A DNA stretch of 64,000 nucleotides from Golubevia sp. BC0850 (taxonomy: Eukaryota > Basidiomycota > Exobasidiomycetes > Golubeviales > Golubeviaceae), in NCBI GenBank assembly GCA_012976225.1, contig JAAVVG010000003.1:186001-250000 (forward strand), written 5' to 3'. The position numbers and the translations under genes are program-made. Positions within the stretch are counted from its first letter, which is position 1; each line of letters starts with the position of its first letter. Shown one piece after another: positions 12,590-47,996 of this stretch. The notes under the pieces were generated by a model. It was given only the letters and a program-made list of their open reading frames with translations, was not told the DNA's origin and ran no database searches.

Positions 12590-14878
12590 TCAAAAACTTC
12601 TGCAATTCTCTTTCCTATCTTCAAATGGGAGAACCAGAAGTAGAAAATAGTTTGTATTTTGGGCGAGAAATTGACCGAGACAAAGCTGTTTGGAAATAGA
12701 ATAGAGTATCAGAAATTAGTCCAAGAAATGGAGTGGAGACTGCAAAAAACCCTTGTGATCGTCAAGGTAGCGAAATGAAGGAAGGAACTCACTCTTGGAC
12801 CGTGGTTGAAGGAATGGAACAAAGCAGATCCTAGATTCTTATGGACTTTTCTCCTAAGATTTCTCTTCGATGAATCGTTCTGGTTTAAACTTGCAGCAGT
12901 CTGGAGAAGATAGAAGATCGAAGTGAGGTGCGTCAGCCTACGAGACGGTTGCTATCTCTTCAGTCCGAGACTTGAGAATCAAGACTCTCACCTGGTCCCC
13001 AAACTTCGGGAGTACGAGTCATGACATAGTCACTCCAAGAAACAGTTTCACCTGCTTTTACTCCGATGTCTGGCAGCCTATCTTGGAGACCTCCTTCCTC
13101 GACCATGGTAGATTTAGACATGTCGAATCCTTTTTGTTGATATGGTTTGATGATATCGTCTTTCAAAGCTTTCTTGATGTTCCTTGCCACTGTTGAGTGT
13201 GAACTGAGGAGAGGAGAAAAGCACAGCATCGAAAAGGGATCAGTCAATTAAAATAGTCGACACCCAAAAAAGGAGAGAACAGGCATCGCCACCTAAATAA
13301 AAGACGATCCTCAGCCTCTCTCGAACACTCACCTGCCGGGTGCAATCTCGTGGCTTCGTAGAAGACGCCTTGTAGATATGGAAGAGATTTGATGTCGTCG
13401 TGATCCATCATTCTGCCCTCTAGAACCGAATCGATCTTCTCGCGGATCTTTGGGATGACCCTGAACAACAGGAACGTTAGAACGAGGTTAGATGGGCTCA
13501 TCTTTTAACTTCCTTTTAGGAAACAACTCACTCAGGATTCAAGAAGAGCTCGTAGAACCCCCATCCTAAGGTTTGAGCGGTCTAGAAAAAGATGTAGAGA
13601 GAAAGGGCGAGAGAGAAAGGGTGAGAGAGAGAGAAAGGGTGAGAGAGAGAGAAAGGGTGAGAGAGAGAAAGGGTGAGAGAAAGAAAGGGTCAAGTCGGCT
13701 GGTCCACCCATTAAGCATTCTCCAGGTTCGATTGTTGATACTTACGGTGTCACGTCCAGCAATCAAAAAGTTGATGACGCAAATTCTCAATTCTTCTCTT
13801 TCACCTCCCTTCTCCATAAACAGATCAAGGAGGTCCTTTCTTAGGTTCCCTTCGTTCCTTCCATAGGCTTCCCCAGATGCTAATAATTGAGCGTTTCTCT
13901 TTATTTTGGCATCGATCAAATCGTAACAATAATCCTCAAGGAACTTGGTTGCTTTTCTCATTTCACGTCCTTCTGTAGACCACATTTCAATCAGCTTAGC
14001 CATCGGGTTCGAAAGTCGGCTGTCCATCACCAGCTGAGCGAAATCGAAAGCGTCGGCGAAGGGTCCAGAGGGAGCGAGCTGAACGGGATCGGAACTGTAA
14101 GAAAGGGCGAAGTCAAGAAATGTAAGATTAAAAAGAGTGGAAAGAAAGCTATCGAGGAGTCGCCAGAATCCAGATACGTGACGAGACTCACGGCAAGCAT
14201 CCCACAGTGGTACTGAAAGCCATAGTAGCAAACGAACTGAGATTAAAGCTGAAGAAGATGTCTTGTAGATTGACTTCTTGACCCTTTTCTACCAAGTTTG
14301 TCATCAAACTGTTCAAAGTTGTCAGATCTCCGTGAACGGTTTCTTGAACGTGGTTTCTGAAGTTCAATACAAAGAAGATGTTGGAGGCCAGCTTTCTTTG
14401 AGCTTTCCAAACTTGATATTTGAACCCGATTAATGTAGGTAGGCTGGAGTTTGGTGACAAGAGGAGGTGAGAATCCACTTTTTGTCTCTCCAAGATCCAA
14501 AGACACTGAACTCACATGGTTGATGTAAATAAATCTACCGCCAAAGACAGGTACACTGGCTGTCCAGGGAAGGGCTCCTTTGGTGAGAGTCTTCTGATGT
14601 CTCTAATACTCAACAAGCAGTCTTACTTTCTTGTTGGCGACCGTCATCAACCAAGGCGTCGATCCTATCGATAGGTAAGCTTTCGGAGATGAAAGCTCTG
14701 AACGAGTTGCAACGAAGAGCAGGCGATCATTGTAGATTAGCGAGAGAGTGATAAGAATTACGATTGAAACCCCTAGACTCAAAGCCGAAGTGGATTGTGA
14801 GGCTAAGAAGGGAGAGAAGGAGTTGGCCTTGAGGGTCGAGTTGGCTAGAAATGAAGACACTGATGAAGCTTGAGACAT
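12590..14878 (-). pseudogene. cytochrome P450 (CYP52/CYP63-like), apparently decayed
   Basis: Family hallmarks on successive exons: KAQRKLASNIFF (helix C), 14094..13746 with FAFDFAQ-like ADAFDFAQ and AGRDT, 13581..13532 (TAQTLGWGFYELF, helix I), 13460..13333 (YEATRLHPA, ExxR), 13189..12992, 12900..12793 (CKFKPERF, then SFNHGPR), and 12685..12590 (LCLGQFLA, heme Cys). Two defects are visible. Exon 12900..12793 has one base too many to join its neighbours: reading in frame from FKPERF meets a stop, while SFNHGPR lies in another frame. About 40 residues normally between the N-terminal region and helix C are not found, and the first exons (near 14878 and 14590) do not join cleanly. Either a recent pseudogene or an assembly error plus missed exons. 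The intron at 13582..13745 is filled by a GA minisatellite. Confidence 0.62.
13604..13690. repeat. GA-rich minisatellite
   Basis: About four imperfect tandem copies of an 18-20 bp unit, 'gtgagagagagagaaagg', inside the helix I intron of the P450. Each unit contains a GTGAG-like donor core only on the non-coding strand, so it is not obviously tied to splicing. Unspaced, direct and purine-only, hence not a CRISPR. Confidence 0.8.
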
Positions 14879-18780: not shown

Positions 18781-21164
18781 ATGCTATCCTTAGGTGCTCG
18801 TTCCACTCTAAGAGCTTCTCGTTCTTCTCTCTCGACCGCTTCCACAGTTCGTTATGCTTCAACCAAATCTTTAACTCAAGCAGTTGGTGAAGTTATTCCA
18901 GAAAAGCAAGAGAAGTTAAAGCAACTCAAGGCAAACTACGGAGATGCTTCCCTAGGTGACATTAAAGTCTCAGGTCTTTTAGGTGGAATGAGAGGCTTAA
19001 AAGTCATGCTTTGGGAAGGTTCAGTTCTAGATGCTGATACTGGAATCACTTTCCATGGGAAATCAATCCCTGACTGTGAGAAGGTTCTACCAACCGCTAA
19101 GGATCTAGGTCACCAAGGAAAGGAAATGCGTGAGTAGAATTGGTGAAAGTGAGGTGGGAAGAGTTAACAATCAGATCGAAGGAGCTGTGTTGGGGGTAGG
19201 ACGAAACAGGAAGAAACCTGGCAGAGCCTTCAATCCTTCAAACTCATCTTTTGTAGCCGCTTCTTTCGAAAACCTTTTCTAGTTATCATGATACTGATAT
19301 TTTTTGAATGCTCTTTCCATGCGTATCCTTTTCAACCTGATAGTCCCAGAATCCATGCTCTGGCTACTCCTCACCGGAAACGTCCCAACCGTCGATGAAG
19401 TTCGTGGACTCTCCGAAGAATTAGCTGCTAAGGGAAAGCTACCAAGCTACGCTGAAAAAATCATTGACTCTTTCCCAAAGACTATGCGTGAGTACACAAG
19501 CTTGTTGAAGTTTCCGAGGAGGGACGAGTGTTTTTTGGGGCAGGTGGAAGGAAGAAGTTGGAAGCAGTAGATGTTAGCTGAAAGGAATTCCGAAATCTTC
19601 CGACAAGAGATTGAATAACTCAAGAATAGAAATTGGATCATCTAGGCTACAGTCTTGAGCTGCTGCCCATCATTCCCTTGCTCATTTCCCTTCTGATGCT
19701 AACATCCTCTCCTCCTTCCCTCTCCAGACCCAATGACCCAATTCGCTGCTGCCGTCGCTTCCCTCAACCACGATTCCAAGTTTGCTGCCGCCTATACTAA
19801 GGGAATCAAGAAATCCGAATACTGGGTCCCAACTCTCGAAGATTCCATAGATCTAGTCGCTAAGCTCCCAGCTATCGCTGCCAGAATCTACTACAACGTT
19901 TTCGGACGTGGAGATGGAACCCAAGCTATTGACCCAAAGCTTGATTTGATCGGAAACTACACCAACATGATTGGATATGGTGGAAACGAGGGAATGACTG
20001 ACTACATGAGACTTTACATTGCTATTCACGGAGATCATGAAGGTGGAAATGTTTCTGCTCACACCGCTCGTGAGTATCTGTATTCGTTAGGCGGAAGGAA
20101 ACGAGAATTTAGAATCGAGAGGTGCTGGGAGATAGAGTAAGACGATGTTCTTGGGGCTGGAGGTTGGAGAGCCTGAAGAATCGAAGATCCGAAACTGATA
20201 ATTCTTCCTTTACCCTTCTCCCCCCTTTCTTCCTAATCAGACCTTGTTGGATCTGCTCTTTCAGACCCATATCTGTCCTACTCTGCCGCTCTTCTCGGTC
20301 TAGCTGGTCCTCTCCACGGGTGAGTTTTCAAGCCGAAAGAACAGGATATTTTGAGCTTTGTTCGCTGCCAATCCAAGCTTGGATCCCCATCTCGTCTCTT
20401 CTCTCAAGTTCTCAAACCCGGAAACGAGGGCTTGGAGATAGCTCAAAAAAGAATCAAGTGGCATACACTCATTTTCTGAGAGAAATTAGAACTCGCACTA
20501 ATTCTTCCCTCTCTCTTTTGCTTCTCCCTGCCTTCCTTATATTCTTCTTCGACATCAGACTCGCTAACCAAGAAGTTCTCGGATGGGCCCTTGCCATGCA
20601 AAAGGCCGTTGGTGATGATATGAGTGACGAGAAGATCAAGGAATACCTTTGGTCTACCTTGAAGAGTGGACGTGTTGTCCCAGGGTGAGTTTGCATTTTC
20701 TGATTCTGACTGGGAGGCAATGGAGGCAACAGGAACGAGCTCTTATTCGGCGGGAGACATCTTCTAACTCTGCTCTTCCTCTCCCTCTCCCCTCTAGATA
20801 CGGACACGCCGTTCTCCGTCAACCAGACCCACGTTTCACCGCTCTATCTCGTTTCTGTGATACCCGCCCAGAACTCAAGGATTCCAAGATTGTCGAGCTA
20901 GTCAAGCGTGTCTCTCAAGTCGCTCCAGGAGTTCTAACCGAACACGGAAAGACCAAGAACCCATTCCCAAACGTCGACGCTCAATCCGGTTGCGTTCTTT
21001 ACGAGTACGGAATGTCCGAGTTCAAATACTACACGGTCGTCTTCGGAATCTCAAGAGCTCTTGGTGCTCTACCACAGTTGGTCATGGACAGAGCCCTCGG
21101 AATGCCAATCGAGAGACCCAAGAGTATGAGCATGGCTTCCCTAGAAGCTTTCCTCAAGAAGTAA
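18781..21164 (+). CDS. CIT1: mitochondrial citrate synthase
   Basis: Condenses acetyl-CoA and oxaloacetate to citrate in the TCA cycle. Six exons: 18781..19129, 19344..19487, 19728..20069, 20241..20319, 20559..20684, 20798..21164; 468 aa, phases consistent. The N-terminus ([18 protein letters not shown]) is a typical Arg/Ser mitochondrial presequence. Catalytic residues are present: His in GPLHGLANQE (about 304), His in YGHAVLR (about 350) and Asp in PNVDAQSG (about 407). [16 protein letters not shown] and [10 protein letters not shown] confirm the eukaryotic type. The residue two after the catalytic Asp is Gln, where most citrate synthases I know have His (VDAHSG). Codons are richer in C-ending forms than in neighbouring genes, as expected for high expression. 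2-methylcitrate synthase is a related alternative and cannot be fully excluded. Confidence 0.93.
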
Positions 21165-39070: not shown

Positions 39071-42000
39071 CTACGAAGATCCACTGGCAGAGGATCCAGA
39101 ATTGCGATGAGCTGCCTTATCTTCAGCGACATCCTCCCTGAGAGCAGCAGCACCGGCCTTTTCGGAAAGGTTGGTTCTAGTCTTCTCGAGGTGTTCAGCA
39201 CCGAATCTCTTGATCAATTCGGCATCAAGTTCGTCTGAGGTGAGATGAGGCTTGTTGAGGGAGAGGTAACAAGCAGTAGTCATCATGTGCTTCTTGTTCC
39301 ACCATTCGCCTTCGTGAGATTCGGCGACTGAGGAAGGGGAGAAAGAGGAAGGAAGATAGGACAGGAGTTAGCATGTGGCAAAATGAGAGAGTGACGCTGT
39401 CCTCTAGCGATCAGTAGAACAGGGAGACACTCACAGATCAAATCAAGCTCCTCGAGACCTCTACGCTTGGTTTCTGGGAAGAAAGCCCAAATGACAGGGA
39501 TGAAGGCCATGTTGAGGACGGCGAAGATCTAGAGACAGTGGAAAGCGAAGGAAGAGTCAGTCAGGAGATTCGAAAAGATTGCTTTACTTCTACTCTGCTC
39601 TATCTTCGCGTACTACTCACGATGTAGGTCTGGTACCCGATGTTCTCGAAAGCTGGAGGAGTAATCATGACGATCAAGAAGTTGAACAGCCAGTTGGCGG
39701 AGGTGGCGATGGCGGAAGCTGGAGCTCTGATACGGATTGAAGTAATCTCAGGTGGGTACAACCAAGTCATACCGAGCCATCCAAAGGCGAACATAGTGTT
39801 GAAGAAGTAGAGGAAGACGGCGGCGACGTAACCGTAGGCTCCAGCGTTTCCTTCTCCTTGAGTTTCGGTTCTATAGTCGACGACAGAGATGACTCCGGCG
39901 AGGATAGCCATTGAAGCACCCATCATGAAGGCAGTTGACATCATTAGGTTTCTACGTCCCAGAGTGTCGATCATGAAGAGAGCTACGATGGAGGCGGCGA
40001 AGTACTCGGTTCCGTTTCCAGCAGCGAGGAGTCGAGCTAGGTTATCGTCTGGTTGAATGGACTTGAAGACAGTTGTGGCGTAGTAGGTAATCAAGTTGAT
40101 ACCAGAGAGCTGCTGGAAAGCCTGAGCGGTGAAGGCTGAGAAAAAAAGAAAAGGAAACTCATCAGTCAAATGTTGGAGAAACCGAACAAAGCAAAAGATC
40201 GACTTACCGATAGTAGTACGGTAGAAGTTCTGCTCTGGTCCATTAGTGAGTAGCTCTGAGTACTTGAACTGGTGAGACAAAGAAGTCATTCGAGGAACAG
40301 ATTCAGTTGGAAGTCTACTTTGAGGCTACAGCGAACGACAACACTCTACTCACGTCTCCCATAAGCTTGTCAGAAGCAACGATAGATTCCTCAAGTTGAC
40401 GAACGACAGTTTGGATAGCTGGATCGTCGACAGTGGTTCTGTCCAAGTTGGCAAGAATCTGTGCAGCCTTGTCGGATTCTCCCTTCTTGATTAACCAACG
40501 CGGGGATTCTGGGAGCATTAGGATTCCAATAAGAAGTAATCCAGCGAAAGCTCCTTGGAAAGCGATAGGGAATCTCCATTGGACTTCACTGTTCTTGATC
40601 TGGAAGAATCCGTAATCAGTCCAGTAAGCTGAAAGAGACGTGAGGGAAGTAGAGAGAATGATGAGGATGAGAACATGATTTGCAGAATTCGAATTCATTG
40701 TCTATGCAGACTCACCGATCATGATTCCACAACTGATAAGGGATCCTTCGATGAGTACGAGAAGACCTCTGTTGTGAGCCTTGGAGAGTTCTGATTGCCA
40801 CCTATGAAGAGGGGAGATAGAGATAGAGAGAGGAAGGTGGGAGTCAGTTGTGTGTGACGGAGAGACAGCACATGAGCAATCTAGGAGAGGAAGATACCCC
40901 AGCATGTTCAAGGGACATACTCACATAGGAATGGTAGAGGTGTTCATTCCATTCTATGAGAGGGAAATTAAGAAGAAAGAGGGAGGTTGTTAGTGATCAA
41001 TACATCAGAGGGAAGTCACAAAGTTTATCTGTACTCACACTATTACGTGGTAAGGAAGGGAAATAAGTCGAGAAAAAGTGAATGGAAAGGGAAGCTGTGA
41101 GTTGACAGAACGAGGGAAGCGTCGCTTTGAGGATCGAAACGTTTACTCACCCGATACCAGTGATAATACGTCCAGCGGTGAATTGTCCAAGAGAGAAAGC
41201 AGCAGTCATGATAACGGTTCCGACAATCATAGTCATGGCGCCGATAGCAATAGAAGTACGACCTGAAGAAGAGAGGAAGTGGCAGAGTCGAAGGTCAGAC
41301 GAGATGCTCGCTTCATGACAAACATTTCGGGTCTTTTTCACTCACGTCCAATAGTATCTCCTTTCCAAAGGACAATGAGAGATCCAAGGAGGGCACCAAT
41401 TTCGTAGATAGCAACAACGACTCCCTGAACAGGAGTGCTGAAACTTGGATCTTTGTGTCCGTCTGGTGTTTCTCCGATAGCTGGGAAAGACATTTGAAAT
41501 TGTTCTTCGGTCAAAAGACCGGACATAACTCCTTGATCATAACCGAAGAGAAGCTGGAGAGAGAGAGAGAGAGGAAGGGGTTGGGCGAAGATGAGCAGGG
41601 TGGAGGGGAGGATGGAATGGACAGGTGGGACATGATTCAAAAGACCCAGGTCCGTGAGATGTTAAGTTGGTAACAACAAGGTCTTGATCAGGAACCCTGA
41701 GCAGATACCTATAGATCGCTCAAGAAGGCCACACTCCTCTCGGCAAGCCTCGAATTCCTCCCCTGCACCTGATTCTTTCCCAAACGTCCATCTTTTCCTC
41801 AGCGAATAGATCTCAAGAATCTCTCCCCCGAGTTTGCATTCCAATTAGTACTCACGAAACCTATTAGAAGTTGAATAAAAGGGTGAGTGAAAAAGGTGAT
41901 GTTTGAAGAAGGGAGGTGATGAGTTAATTTTAAGTCGAAACTTCTCAAAGTAGAAGTAGCCCAACACAAGCTAGTAGAATATTTGGAAGTGAAGAGGAGT

Positions 42001-42220
42001 TGACCTCAAGGTGTTCGCGTGATAAGCTGCTGCTTGAATCACTTTCCCAAAAGCCACACCATCTGATGAGTGAGTGATTGGTGGAGGAGGAGGGTAGGGA
42101 GTAGGGGATGAAGACCAACACTTTTTCTTACTCACCAACACCAGAGACTAGAGCGATCATGGCAGTTAAGGCTCCACCCTTGAAGAGGTTCCCAGCAATG
42201 ACTGGTAGTTGTGCAACCAT
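39071..42220 (-). CDS. MFS hexose transporter with 5-nt and 1-nt exons
   Basis: Sugar:proton symporter or facilitator of the plasma membrane, 575 aa, twelve helices. Coding order: 42220..42136, 41860..41856 (5 nt), 41553..41346, 41262..41151, 41039 (1 nt), 40953..40925, 40801..40716, 40628..40354, 40268..40208, 40135..39621, 39528..39435, 39327..39071. The sum is 1728 nt, exactly 576 codons, with no internal stop. Signatures: GFLLFGYDQGVMSG, DTIGRRTS, AGRIITGIGNGMNTSTIPMW, PESPRWLIKKG, QQLSGINLITYY, DTLGRRNL, GWLGMTWLYPPEI and PETKRRGLEEL. Without the 5-nt exon (GTTTC) the frame is lost before FGYDQG. Without the single T, TGIG|NGMN reads into a stop within four codons. The C-terminal tail is about 85 residues and charged. 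The substrate is probably glucose or another hexose, from family likeness only. Confidence 0.9.
41039..41039 (-). other. single-nucleotide exon of the hexose transporter
   Basis: On the minus strand the sequence reads ...cgtaatag|T|gtgagtac. The flanking introns are 111 nt (41150..41040) and 83 nt (41038..40956), both GTGAGT...TAG. The T completes the third base of Gly in TGIGNGMN. Confidence 0.7.
41856..41860 (-). other. 5-nt microexon of the hexose transporter
   Basis: On the minus strand the sequence reads ...aatag|GTTTC|gtgagt. It lies between a 275-nt and a 302-nt intron, and supplies the end of one Gly codon and the Phe codon of VGFLLFGYDQG. Confidence 0.78.
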
Positions 42221-43145
42221 GTTTGAATTTGTTGCTAAGGTTTTGAAGTCGAATTTGGTTACCAGTGAGAAGAGATGGTTGTAATGAATGTGAAGGAGGT
42301 AGAGACTATGAGAATAGAAGAAGAGAAGAGACCTATCCTTTGGGTTCAAGTAGGAATAGCTCTGTTGGTTTCTAAAGATGGTTGGTAGGGAAAGAATGAG
42401 GAAAGAAAGAGTGGAACGGATTTTCTTCAACCTGGAAAAGGGGGTTTCCCTTCCCTCCCTTCCCATTCCTTCCACCGATCTGCCATTCCACCCTAGTTTA
42501 CCAAAGTTTGATTAACACCCAACCCCCTGTTTCCGTCCCCCACGTCATTCCCTCAAATTCAACAAATTTTCAACTCCAAAAACGGAAGATTTATTCCCAA
42601 AATATGACAAATTCGAGAAGGACGAACCCTTTTCGTCATTTTCAACCAACCGTAGGTTCGAAATCGACCGCGGAAATTAGTGGCGGCAGGGAGGTGGTGG
42701 CGCGGCTTGGGTGATGAACCATCAACTCCACCTCGAAGTTCCTACCCATATCTCCTCTTTTCTCATCATCTCCGCCTTTGTTCTCAATTTCAAAACAGTT
42801 CCTGACCAATTTCCCCGCCCTGGGTGAGATGTGAGATCGAGAGGGACAGGAGGTGAGAAGTGGGATGGTTTCCAGAGAACCTCTCCCTTGTTCGTTGAAT
42901 ACGAGTACGCTCCTCTCCTGCTTCTAGCAGATTCCTAGGTCTAGTTCTACAATCACTCTTCTGCAGAATTCAGATGAGGAGAGAAAGTGCTTCGAGGTTA
43001 GGCGTCTTGTCATTTCTGGCGCGCTGCAAACAGACAGGGACTTCGAGCTTCAATTCCGAGAATGGTGTTCAATTATAGACCCCTATCTTTACACAAGTTG
43101 ACTAGATGCAAGTAGAGAGCAGTATCAAGAGGAGTTGCGAACCGA
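42221..43145. other. intergenic, hexose transporter upstream region
   Basis: 925 bp between the transporter start and the 3' end of the P450 on the same strand. Relatively rich in short homopolymers. No gene, repeat or palindrome of note was seen. Transporter regulation would be expected to sit here. Confidence 0.5.
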
Positions 43146-45196
43146 TCAAAACCCTGTAGCTTGAAGATCAGAGGTCAGAGTGACCTCTTCTTCCACGACC
43201 TGGCGACGTTGATCCGAGCGATACTTGAAATGGCTGTGTTTCATCGAGAAATACAGTAGGATCCTGCTTGTCAGATTGTCAGAAGGTAAGAGTCAGGCTT
43301 CGAGGGACGCTACTCACGCTTGAAAGGGAAGGGGGTGAGAGTTTGCTCCAGAATCAAATGCGAGAGTGTCAACGTCCTCAGGCTTCATTCCCTCCGGAGG
43401 AAGAATGTCAAAAGCCCAAGCTAAAGCAGCAATGTTGATCCAAAGAGATCTCTCAGCGATATTGAGACCCGGACAGATCCTACGTCCGAAACCAAAAGCC
43501 ACTGATCCTCTTTGCTTGGAAAACCATGATCCTTCAACGACAGATCCATCTTCAGACAAAAATCTTTTTGGGTCGAAGGTGTCCGCATTGGGATACTCTT
43601 TTTCGTCTAGAGAGATTGACCTGGAAGTACACAACAGCGAGACGTATCAAGGTTAGAGAATACAGAGAGGTGAAAAAGTCGATGACGCCGAATACTCACC
43701 AGTGATTGCCTACAACAGCAGAGCCTTTAGGAAGTACATAACCGTTGTAAGTCACGTCCTCAGTCAAGGAGTGCATAAACCCACCAGAACTGACCGGTCT
43801 CCATCTCAGAACCTCTTGAACAGTTGCTCCAACGAATGGAATTGAACCAAAGTCTTCGAAAGTTGGCATTCTCGTCTCATCGCATGAGGCATCGATCTTC
43901 TCCTGGAGTTGCTTCAAAGCTTCTGGGAATCTACAGACGGCCATCACGAAGATTGAGAGCTAAGAGGGCGAAGAACCTTGGAGTCAGCAAAAATCCCAGC
44001 TGCTTGTCTCTGTTTTGACGAACTCACAGCGGACGCGGTGGTGTCGCTTCCAGCACCAAACAAGGATCCACATAGATAAGCAGCTTCTTCATCTAATAAG
44101 CCTAGCTCCTTTTGTCTGTTCTGGAGTTTGCTTGCGAAAGAAGGAGCGCTTGACTTTCCATCTGCGACTCTCTTTCTAACATCTTGATACTGCCCCATGA
44201 AGAGTTCCAATTCCAGTCCGTGAAGTCTTCTTCCCTCCCTCTTCCAAGGATTCATGAACTCCGGAAGATGAAGAAGAGGAGGAAACTTGTCCAAGACTGA
44301 CGCTCCTGGTTTGATGTGGGCAGCTAACGCTCCAAGACGATCGCTGTTGCAAGACCAAGTGAGAGGGTCAGCGCTGGAGGTCCCTTCCAACAGGAGAGAA
44401 GTGAAACTCACTTGACAGCCTGCACCCTTTTGTCCCCGAGGCTCTTGACAGGTTGATCATAGGTGATAGTCATGATGACGCTGGCAGAATAGCGCTTGAA
44501 ATGATCCTGGACGTGTCGAGAATGACGAAAAAGAAGTCAGGGATCAGTTTTAGAGAATAGAACGAATGGTACTCCATTGATGACTCACCTGAAACTTAGA
44601 AGGTTGAGAGCCAATTTGTTGAATCGCTATTCTAGACTCTTTCAGTTGGATAGGTTCAAAGCTCCTGGCTGATTTCTCTTGAAGAGTCTCATGCATGATC
44701 TTTCTAAACGTCCTCCAACGATCTCCATGAGGTAGAATTAGCATTCTCTTATTTCCACTCATGAGTTCTCCAGCCATGATCTGTCTTGGTCGATTTGCAG
44801 TCAAGCCAGCATTCTTCTCCAAGATGGCATTGGCCGAAGAGGCAGTCCCGCAAACGAACAGAAGTTTGCTTGGACCCAATCGAATAGTCATAATGTCTCC
44901 ATACTGAGAAGTCCATTTTTGAAATTGTCTCCATGGATGTTGAGAAGGAATGTCAGTTCCGGAGAAGCTGAAGAAGAAGTAGAGAGGAGATGTGGAGCAG
45001 AGGGAGTCAGCACGCAGGTCTTATCAGCGTTGGTACTTCTTTGATTTCTTTGAATAACTCACAAGCTACTTGAAGGAGGACCTGGAGGTAGTTTGGCGAG
45101 AGTAGAACGAGAAGGTAGAGCATTGAAAAGGAAGAGTCCAAGTGCAAGGGTCAGAGCAAACAGAAGAACTGGGGTGGAGGGGAGCTCGAGAGCCAT
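43146..45196 (-). CDS. cytochrome P450 monooxygenase, fungal O-methylsterigmatocystin-oxidoreductase-like
   Basis: ER-anchored heme-thiolate monooxygenase; substrate unknown. Seven exons in coding order: 45196..45063, 44967..44589, 44506..44412, 44343..44028, 43959..43700, 43620..43318, 43263..43146; 534 aa, all phases consistent. It has an N-terminal anchor (VLLFALTLALGLFLF) with a proline hinge (LPPGPPSS), WRTFRKIMHETL (helix C), AGSDTTASA (helix I), VQEVLRWRP (ExxR), NADTFDPKRFL (PERF region), and the heme loop FGFGRRICPGLNIAE with its Cys. The C-terminal exon carries FKYRSDQRRQVVEEE. Every hallmark is present, in contrast to the decayed P450 at 12.6-14.9 kb, which is of another family. 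No biosynthetic cluster partners lie beside it. Confidence 0.92.
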
Positions 45197-45465
45197 CTTG
45201 AATGCTTGACTGTTTGGACTTGAAGGGTGTTTCAATCTTTTGAAAAGAAAGGAGAGCCTTTCAAGTACTTTCTGCGGGGGAAAGGGAGAGAAGAGAAGTG
45301 GAAGAGGTTCTTGGTCAGAGCTTATGAAGGTAAGGAAATAACGGGATCCCACGTATCTTCCCTACATGACGCGCTGACGCATAACGAAGTCACACCTGTT
45401 AGAATCGAGAGTCTATGGTTTTCGAGATGAAAGTAATACAAATTTGAAAGTTGCGGAAATGTGAC
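45197..45465. other. short intergenic spacer
   Basis: 269 bp holding the P450 promoter and the cystathionine gamma-synthase 3' flank. Nothing distinctive is seen. Confidence 0.4.
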
Positions 45466-47996
45466 CTACGACCCTTCTTCCGCGATTTCCAAAGCCTTCT
45501 GAACCATTTCCTTCAACTCTTTACTATCCTCCAACCCAACACTAATCCTAATCAAACCTCTCTCAACACCGAATTGTTCCACCCAATCCAATTCAGCATA
45601 ATGAGCTAAAATAGCATAAGGAGAAGCCAAAGTGAAATTGGTTCCCAAACTTGGACCTTTTGCACATTTCAAATTGTCATAAAACACTTGAGAAGCTTTT
45701 AGAGAAGTAAAGGTGACTGTTAAAAGACCTCCGAAACCTGATGAATAATTGGTTTCTGAATCTGGAAGGTTCCTTGTATTTGAAGGGTGACGTCTTCGAC
45801 ATGAGTTATAAAGATCTGTAGTGACGTATTTTGGGTAAAATACTTCTTTGACTACTCTAGTTCTCTTCTCTTCAGGTTGTTTTGAATCGATTTTGGAATT
45901 CCATAACAAGTCTGCTATCATTTCCGCATTCTCATCTATTTTTAAAACTCTCTCTTTTGCATCTCTTGAGTTCCTTTCTAAGAAGATGGCGTCCTCGTCT
46001 TTGAGATTATCCTCCCATTCTACCTTCATAATCTTCCTTAATTGATCGATGTACTTAGATCTAGGATTCAAAACCACGGCACCAGCCATTCCATTTGCTT
46101 CTCCAGAGAAAATCTTGGTCAGAGAAGAAACGACAATGTCTGCAAATGGAAGTACGTTGACGTTAAGATAATTTCCAATGGTTTCATCTACCACTATCAA
46201 GAAGTGATGTTTGTTTGCTAGTTCTCTGAGTTGAGCAAGAGGTGGACACCTCAAAAGTGGATTGGAAGGGAATTCGCAAAAAAGAGCTTGAACTCTTGAA
46301 GGTGAAGAAGCTTCTTGAGATGAGAGTAGGGAGGTGAAAGATTCAATATCCGTTGAAGTCCCATGTCCAAAAAAGTGACATCCTGGACCCCACTTCTGAA
46401 GAATCTTCAGAGTATCGGTGTATGGGAAACTTTGATTGAAGGATAGTTAGGGAGGAAGACTGGGTAAGAACGACATACGCACTCATACTTTTCAACTTCG
46501 AAACTCACCCAAAGCAAACACTCTTTCCAAGTTCCTCCCCTCGGTTTCCAGTTTCTCGTCTCCTCCACTCCATAGCCACTTGATGAGCATGGAATATCGC
46601 ACTCATTCCAGTAGGCATCAACCAAACGTCACTCTCATTGACTCGAGCTTGATCAATCTCAGCAATGCTTCCAGAGACTCCAATATCTTCATTCACCCCA
46701 TCTTCCAAAAGGTCTTGAGTGGGATTGGAACCCGGAGCTAAATCTTCGAGTTTTCCAGCTATCCTTCTTCTAAGGGCTTTCTTAGCTAAAGAAGCCGAAG
46801 TCAACGGAAGGTTCCTTCCATAACGTTCCTCCAGATAAGTAGTTGCGTCCGAGTTCAGGATCTCCGGCTCTACTGTTTCGAAGGGTTGGTTGCTTCCATT
46901 CAGCTTGAAGGTTGAAGAAGAAGAAGAACAAGCTTTAGGGGAGATTGAGAGGTTTTTGAGTCCAGTATCGGAAGGAGTTGGAGTGGAAATTGAAGTGGGA
47001 GTAGCAGTTCCAGAGATTGGAGTCGAATTAGTTGTCGCACCTCTTGAGTAATGTTTGTTTCTACCATAACTTCTTGTTCTCTGATTTGAAGCCAAAGCAC
47101 CTGCTCCACCCTCTACACTTGAAATCCCATCTAGAGCTGCCGAAGAAGAAGAGAAGAAAGTAGAAGTGGTCGGAGAGACTGGACCACTGCTTCCAATCGG
47201 AGAAGTTGATCTTGGAGGTGAGCCAGCTGAACTTGATCTGACATCCACTTGATGAAGTTGATTTGATTCTGAAGAAATAAGAGTCGTACTGGAAGTTGAG
47301 GTTGAGGAAGAGATGGAAGAGCTTTTCAAAAGAGATAGACACTTTTCAGCAAATCTACTTGAAATTCCATCTCCTGTATGTTGCCAATAGCTCTTAGCTA
47401 AAGGAAACAGTTCGATTGGAAACAAAACTATTTGAATGTTCAAATCTGAATTGGAAGATTCTGGAAAGATGTCGAAGTGAACTATTCTAATGGTTGGTGT
47501 AGGAGAAGATGACTCTGATTTGGAATGTTGATCTAAGATGAACTCTCGACACCTCCTGGCTGCTTTGGAAGATGGTAGTAGAATGCAATCTTCTGAAGGT
47601 TGTCCAAATTTACTCTTCAGGAGAGTTGATAGCTAGAAAGATGGAGGAGTGAGCGAGTGAAAGGATCAGTTCTTCCTATCATCTCATTCCTTTTGCATTG
47701 GCTTTAGTAGCTCTTCTATCCCTTTCCCTTTCCCTGATTAGACAGTCTGATTGAGCTCATATGATTACTCTACTCACTTCCTGAATCATCTTGTGAATGA
47801 AGAACCTTGGATAACCAATTTCCATGGTTTCCTTCAATCTACCTTCTTCATAATCGATGTTATCTTTCCAAAGTGGAAGTGAAACAGAGACTGCGTGAGG
47901 TGTATTGGCTGGAACTGATGTCCCTACTTTATAATCTCGTCCATGTCCAGGTCCCAAGCAAGAATTGCTGATGGAACTTGAGGAAGTTGCTGTCAT
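45466..47996 (-). CDS. STR2: cystathionine gamma-synthase (PLP-dependent)
   Basis: Joins cysteine to an activated homoserine ester to make cystathionine in transsulfuration. Three exons in coding order: 47996..47778, 47632..46509, 46429..45466; 768 aa, phases consistent. The fungal type begins with VPANTPHAVSVSLPLWKDNI and EGYPRFF-like EIGYPRFFIHKM. The PLP domain has WLMPTGMSAIFHAHQ, FFGHGTSTDIE, EFPSNPLL, VVDETIGNYLNV, and the Schiff-base Lys in SSLTKIFSGEANGMAG (about 553). The C-terminal domain ends with RISVGLED. A Ser/Thr-rich, low-complexity insert of roughly 150 residues separates the N-terminal region from the PLP core and accounts for extra length. The second intron ends in TCAAAG. 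Divergent from TIM21 with only 105 bp between starts. Confidence 0.92.

Follow-up and report, generated by a model that had tools for sequence, protein, structure and literature searches.

The hexose transporter gene in the window, a 64,000-nucleotide stretch of the Golubevia sp. BC0850 genome (25.8 Mb, 64 contigs), very probably contains a constitutive exon of a single nucleotide, T41039, located between two short GT-AG introns. By a wide margin this is the best reading of the locus, and the base is most likely spliced in this form in vivo. Two further one-nucleotide exons appear to lie elsewhere in the genome, in genes for an ABC1-type kinase and a PRPP synthetase, and the basidiomycete lineage of Golubevia probably uses one-base exons repeatedly.

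The transporter gene and its tiny exons

The spliced model of the gene comprises exons of 85, 5, 208, 112, 1, 29, 86, 275, 61, 515, 94 and 257 nt from 5' to 3', and with T41039 included its coding sequence of 1728 nt is open throughout, giving 575 codons and a stop. All 11 introns begin with GT and end with AG, ten of the donors reading GTGAGT and one GTAAGT. The product is a sugar porter: residues 25-491 align with positions 4-452 of the 452-position Pfam profile Sugar_tr (PF00083, E 7.6e-114), a full-length match that scores 381.5 bits (cut-off 22.3). The nearest named protein among the 120 homologues listed, from Violaceomyces palustris, is 74% identical with 100% of the query covered. The whole model matches 39 sequences in the PDB, and a PDB search with an exon fragment alone returned no match.

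Table 1. Predicted features of the transporter locus and of three further loci (scores are those of the splice-site matrices; nats are finder margins)
Feature	Position	Strand	Basis
Sugar porter (hexose transporter type) gene, 575 aa, 12 coding exons	39071..42220	-	spliced model
Exon 2, five nucleotides, GTTTC	41856..41860	-	acceptor 8.3, donor 8.4; frame requires exon
Exon 4, 112 nt, 3' end GGT ATC GG	41151..41262	-	spliced model
Intron 4, 111 nt, GTGAGTAAAC...TAATAG, phase 2	41040..41150	-	donor 8.4, acceptor 6.9
Exon 5, 1 nt (T), third position in Gly codon GGT	41039	-	only frame-compatible canonical join
Intron 5, 85 nt, GTGAGTACAG...CTCATAG, phase 0	40954..41038	-	donor 8.4, acceptor 12.0
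Exon 6, 29 nt, 5' end AAT GGA ATG AAC	40925..40953	-	spliced model
Predicted 1-nt exon G, ABC1-domain kinase gene	C64:565877		acceptor 10.4, donor 8.0; +22.2 nats
Predicted 1-nt exon C, PRPP synthetase gene	C34:10016		acceptor 11.7, donor 8.4
Candidate 1-nt exon G, gene without family match	C13:462019		+14.5 nats; weak upstream donor 0.9

T41039 is needed for the transporter because skipping it gives an immediate stop: exon 4 joined straight to exon 6 translates as ...TGIGME-stop, just as the first-pass annotation had stated. Canonical joins between the two exons were listed with GT or GC donors, AG acceptors and positive scores, for one intron or two, none shorter than 40 nt, and exactly one in-frame open solution was obtained, the one via T41039. 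The base has a usable site on either side, AG before it and GT after it, and the introns next to it are of normal size (111 and 85 nt, against a predicted median of 104). The acceptor of intron 4, at 6.9, stands near the lower quartile of predicted introns, which counts against a one-nucleotide exon. The splice sites, coordinates and frame arithmetic given earlier are correct, except that the second intron measures 85 nt and not 83; the frame of 575 codons is indeed open with T41039, but it also requires the five-nucleotide exon GTTTC, which had gone unmentioned. The predicted junction sequences are GGTAATGGA with T41039 included, GGGAATGGA with the intron displaced by one base and GGAATGGA with T41039 skipped.

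The base is likewise needed for the conserved protein across the junction. The motif xGxGNG runs ungapped through 112 of 112 homologues that cover the site (8 of the 120 listed, in which the site is not covered, were dropped), the introns of these relatives not being visible in protein models. The two printed alignments with the best PDB relatives show no gap at the motif. In the paralogues on C10 (VSGVGNGM) and C3 (GGIGNGV), the motif lies inside one predicted exon.

In the predicted exon 2, GTTTC between CTAATAG and GTGAGTAC yields VSGVGFLLFGYDQGVMSG, matching the V. palustris protein. The next-best model places a 20-nt exon there instead and brings extra residues before LLFGYDQG. Five of the 120 listed homologue models begin at a Met just downstream of the place of this exon, late starts that hint, though no more than suggestively, at annotation failure there. 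The flanks TAATAG...GTGAGTAC are common to both tiny exons of the gene, and a shared signature was considered and set aside: TAATAGN{1,12}GTGAGTA occurs at 12 genome sites against 8 in the control, two of the 12 lying in the transporter gene, and no clear class emerges. The C10 paralogue (~319-322 kb) carries a predicted 10-nt exon, GTCTGGCAAA, that supplies the conserved VWQ and lies a few codons from the position corresponding to the one-nucleotide exon.

The nearest named proteins to both the transporter and the citrate synthase of the window come from Ustilaginomycotina. The citrate synthase (18781-21164) matches Pseudozyma flocculosa at 82% and a metagenome protein at 84%, among the matches listed. 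None of three listings of 120 homologues, those for the transporter and the citrate synthase included, contains a near-identical protein. Gene-finder models at 12854-14517 and 43089-47996 (-) resemble cytochrome P450 sequence, the second being fused by the finder to another gene.

Gene-finder and shuffle controls

The gene finder combines matrices for donors and acceptors with a codon-position Markov model and intron lengths; it is free of homology and sets no minimum exon length. Long open frames taken from 200 kb of C11 and from the window supplied its first coding model, and it was then retrained in three rounds on 60 kb of C11 together with the window, the transporter gene thus being inside the training set. 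The finder returns the 12-exon transporter model, including the one-nucleotide and five-nucleotide exons. Across 264 kb and 77 genes, T41039 is its only one-nucleotide exon; the other tiny internal exons predicted there have lengths of 0, 6, 7, 14 and 15 nt, some of them surely wrong. When one-nucleotide exons are forbidden, the score of the region falls from 180.9 to 163.6, a loss of 17.2 nats, and the transporter gene is split. Forbidding the five-nucleotide exon as well lowers the score to 155.1, a further 8.5 nats. A 7-nt exon predicted at C11:248318, in a gene whose DUF1746 match is marginal (23.0 bits against a cut-off of 22.3), counts as plausible but weak.

The 197-nt interval between exons 4 and 6 was subjected to 5000 dinucleotide shuffles. 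An equally strong acceptor-N-donor pair arises in none of the 5000; two give an equally strong pair once spacings up to 28 nt are allowed, provided they equal 1 mod 3; spacing-1 pairs with positive scores of any strength are found in 49. Within 308 predicted introns of the 264 kb, three strong acceptor-donor pairs are present (both scores at least 5, less than 20 nt apart), and two of these are the one-nucleotide and five-nucleotide exons of the transporter. For this count exons below 20 nt were forbidden beforehand: an earlier count of 0 in 136 introns was biased, since the finder would turn such pairs into exons, and forbidding short exons avoids the bias.

Further one-base exons in the genome

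A signal-only pattern (eight pyrimidines, 0-12 bases, then YAG-N-GTGAGT) run over the whole genome matched 83 times, at 41 separate places; its reversed control matched 127 times, and the motif is hence not enriched. Five pattern searches covered the whole genome, and in each of them motifs of acceptor, one base and donor were outnumbered by their reversed-pattern controls, which counts against the exon; the depletion reads as if such motifs were selected against. The GTAAGT-class search returned 12 distinct sites. For 24 of the 41 places the finder assigned a class: four are one-nucleotide exons, eight are ordinary donors at exon ends, one lies within an exon, four fall on the strand opposite to coding sequence and seven lack a coding signal, and none of the 24 belongs to the ordinary-intron class. 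By eye, the site within an exon and one of the signal-less sites are ordinary donors too.

The four one-nucleotide calls are T41039 in the window and those at C64:565877, C34:10016 and C13:462019, the last being a candidate. Given a known false call of the finder, a one-nucleotide exon was counted as supported only where a conserved protein backs it. That call, at C62:433329 in a gene that presumably resembles Exo70, was rejected by eye, an ordinary intron being followed there by an exon that begins in frame with AGTGAGTAT. A CTNAC-anchored search gave 49 matches, 47 of them distinct after merging, and 15 were viewed besides the window site. At 12 loci of this search the finder called no one-nucleotide exon in complete genes with a CDS of at least 200 nt, and none was called at two further loci.

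In the kinase gene, the predicted G restores NFE-CVILDHGLYFDID, within the conserved NFE..LDHGLYFDID, and a direct join runs into NFDA-stop. All 120 listed kinase homologues are ungapped across this junction, predicted as TTTGAGTGC. Weak sites included, 39 joins keep the frame open, and the one-nucleotide solution is the best of them (39.6 vs 24.4). In the PRPP synthetase gene, the predicted C restores the motif PVDNLYAEP, and a direct join shifts the frame into a stop. The junction, predicted as GACAACCTT, is gapless in four printed PDB alignments with ribose-phosphate pyrophosphokinase 1 and 2 chains. A listing with a laxer donor threshold returned 15 open-frame joins, weak sites included, the one-nucleotide solution again being the best (30.0 vs 13.2). 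The finder margin here is just 5.2 nats, in a 701-base piece, and the upstream donor is GTCAGT (4.0). The 59-residue fragment has no match in Pfam; in NCBIfam, all ten of its matches are ribose-phosphate or phosphoribosyl-pyrophosphate synthetase families, below the whole-protein cut-offs. Among the eight joins printed for each of the two genes, the one-nucleotide join alone keeps the conserved motif, and both loci lie outside the training sequence of the finder. All three supported exons supply the third base of a codon (GG|T, GA|G and AA|C), with a phase-2 intron upstream and a phase-0 intron downstream, the latter opening with GTGAGT.

For the candidate at C13:462019, eight joins keep the frame open, weak sites included, and the one-nucleotide solution is the best (33.9 vs 20.7); its gene has no family match in NCBIfam, Pfam or PDB.

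Alternative readings, splicing order and precedents

If one base had dropped out of the assembly where exon 4 ends or exon 6 begins, there would be a single ordinary intron of 197 nt, with the internal AG-T-GTGAGT present by coincidence. Such a length is unremarkable, as 17% of the 301 predicted introns (median 104 nt) reach or exceed it, and the missing base would belong to a brief stretch of G residues at the donor. The coincidental pair, however, is absent from every one of the 5000 shuffles, and the assembly slip is very improbable because two more genes, found by signal, also need exactly one base, with conserved protein supporting it, so that three slips at the same type of site would be required. 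Still less probable is a 197-nt intron whose ends fall one base away from the canonical sites, as TG-AG or GT-TA, which would give the codon GGG rather than GGT. A G does follow exon 4 and precede exon 6, and the two products would be identical; but a non-canonical terminus is required, and nothing would then explain the internal acceptor and donor, both strong, or the other two genes.

The early stop produced by the direct splice of exon 4 to exon 6 would also be expected of a true frameshift in a pseudogene. With all 11 introns GT-AG, 575 codons open and the V. palustris protein similar over the whole query, this explanation is extremely unlikely. Programmed frameshifting was dropped by reasoning alone.

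Under the reading of T41039 as an exon, introns 4 and 5 would be recognised by intron definition and spliced out in turn, because the factors for both splice sites cannot share one base simultaneously. If intron 4 left first, GGT|GTGAGTAC would remain, with a complete donor; if intron 5 left first, TAATAG|TAATGG would remain, with a complete acceptor. Sequential removal is likely, and the sequence is compatible with either order.

One-base exons as a kind are already known, and the new part is the presence of several in one basidiomycete nuclear genome. The closest precedent in the literature searched is Fusarium CYP621A, a nuclear gene whose one-base exon is confirmed by RNA reads and kept by ~20 orthologues (PMC12940212). 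The two share GT-AG flanks, a role in completing a conserved Gly codon, the need for frame and an interval longer than the usual intron; they differ in phylum and gene, and the base is the central G of the codon in Fusarium, whereas it is the third base, T, here. The Fusarium exon is backed by reads and orthologues, and T41039 is predicted from genomic sequence. The origin proposed there, in which a base lost from the edge of an exon is rescued (PMC12940212), fits T41039 and may apply to it.

The plant precedent named in the first-pass annotation, the one-nucleotide exon of Arabidopsis APC11, is in print, verified by cDNA and reporter constructs (PMC4674806). That of plant VPS55 is verified by cDNA, with emphasis on a GTRAGT-type donor, a further likeness to T41039 (PMC8831610). 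Both share with T41039 a base that the frame requires and the existence of intronless or exon-fused copies elsewhere; they differ in belonging to plants, with conservation across land plants (PMC4674806, PMC8831610). The accompanying remark that none was known from fungi does not stand, given CYP621A (PMC12940212) and a one-nucleotide 'A' exon between group II introns of the mitochondrial rnl of Ophiostoma adjuncti, with two Ceratocystis species cited as alike (PMC12308204). The latter is also a fungal one-base exon between neighbouring introns, but in a mitochondrial rRNA gene with group II introns of self-splicing type, not in a spliceosomal protein gene (PMC12308204). Placozoan mitochondrial cox1 has a one-base exon as well (PMC5436844). 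In the part of the open-access literature covered, searched by wording and in many cases through listings, no nuclear one-base exon was found for Basidiomycota, and only plants (APC11, VPS55) were found to have more than one such gene in a nuclear genome.

One-base exons probe how small an exon can be and still be recognised; usual annotation misses them, leaving truncated or broken gene models. If the predictions are true, the spliceosome copes well with exons of a single base, and the loss of one base at an exon edge within a conserved motif has been rescued recurrently. Several such exons in one 25.8-Mb fungal genome would then offer a tractable system for the order of steps, for intron versus exon definition and for origin.

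The proposal that the T regenerates a donor through recursive splicing is not borne out, GTGAGT being already complete in the downstream intron. Recursive splicing (PMC6224609) also uses an adjacent acceptor and donor in succession, but T41039 is retained and its donor is present before the first step. In TAATAG|T|GTGAGT one base is kept and is needed in the product; since GTGAGT is complete without the T, the site is not one of zero-length recursive splicing. Apart from the transporter gene, the finder predicts a zero-length exon at C11:159232, where AG is followed directly by GTGAGT.
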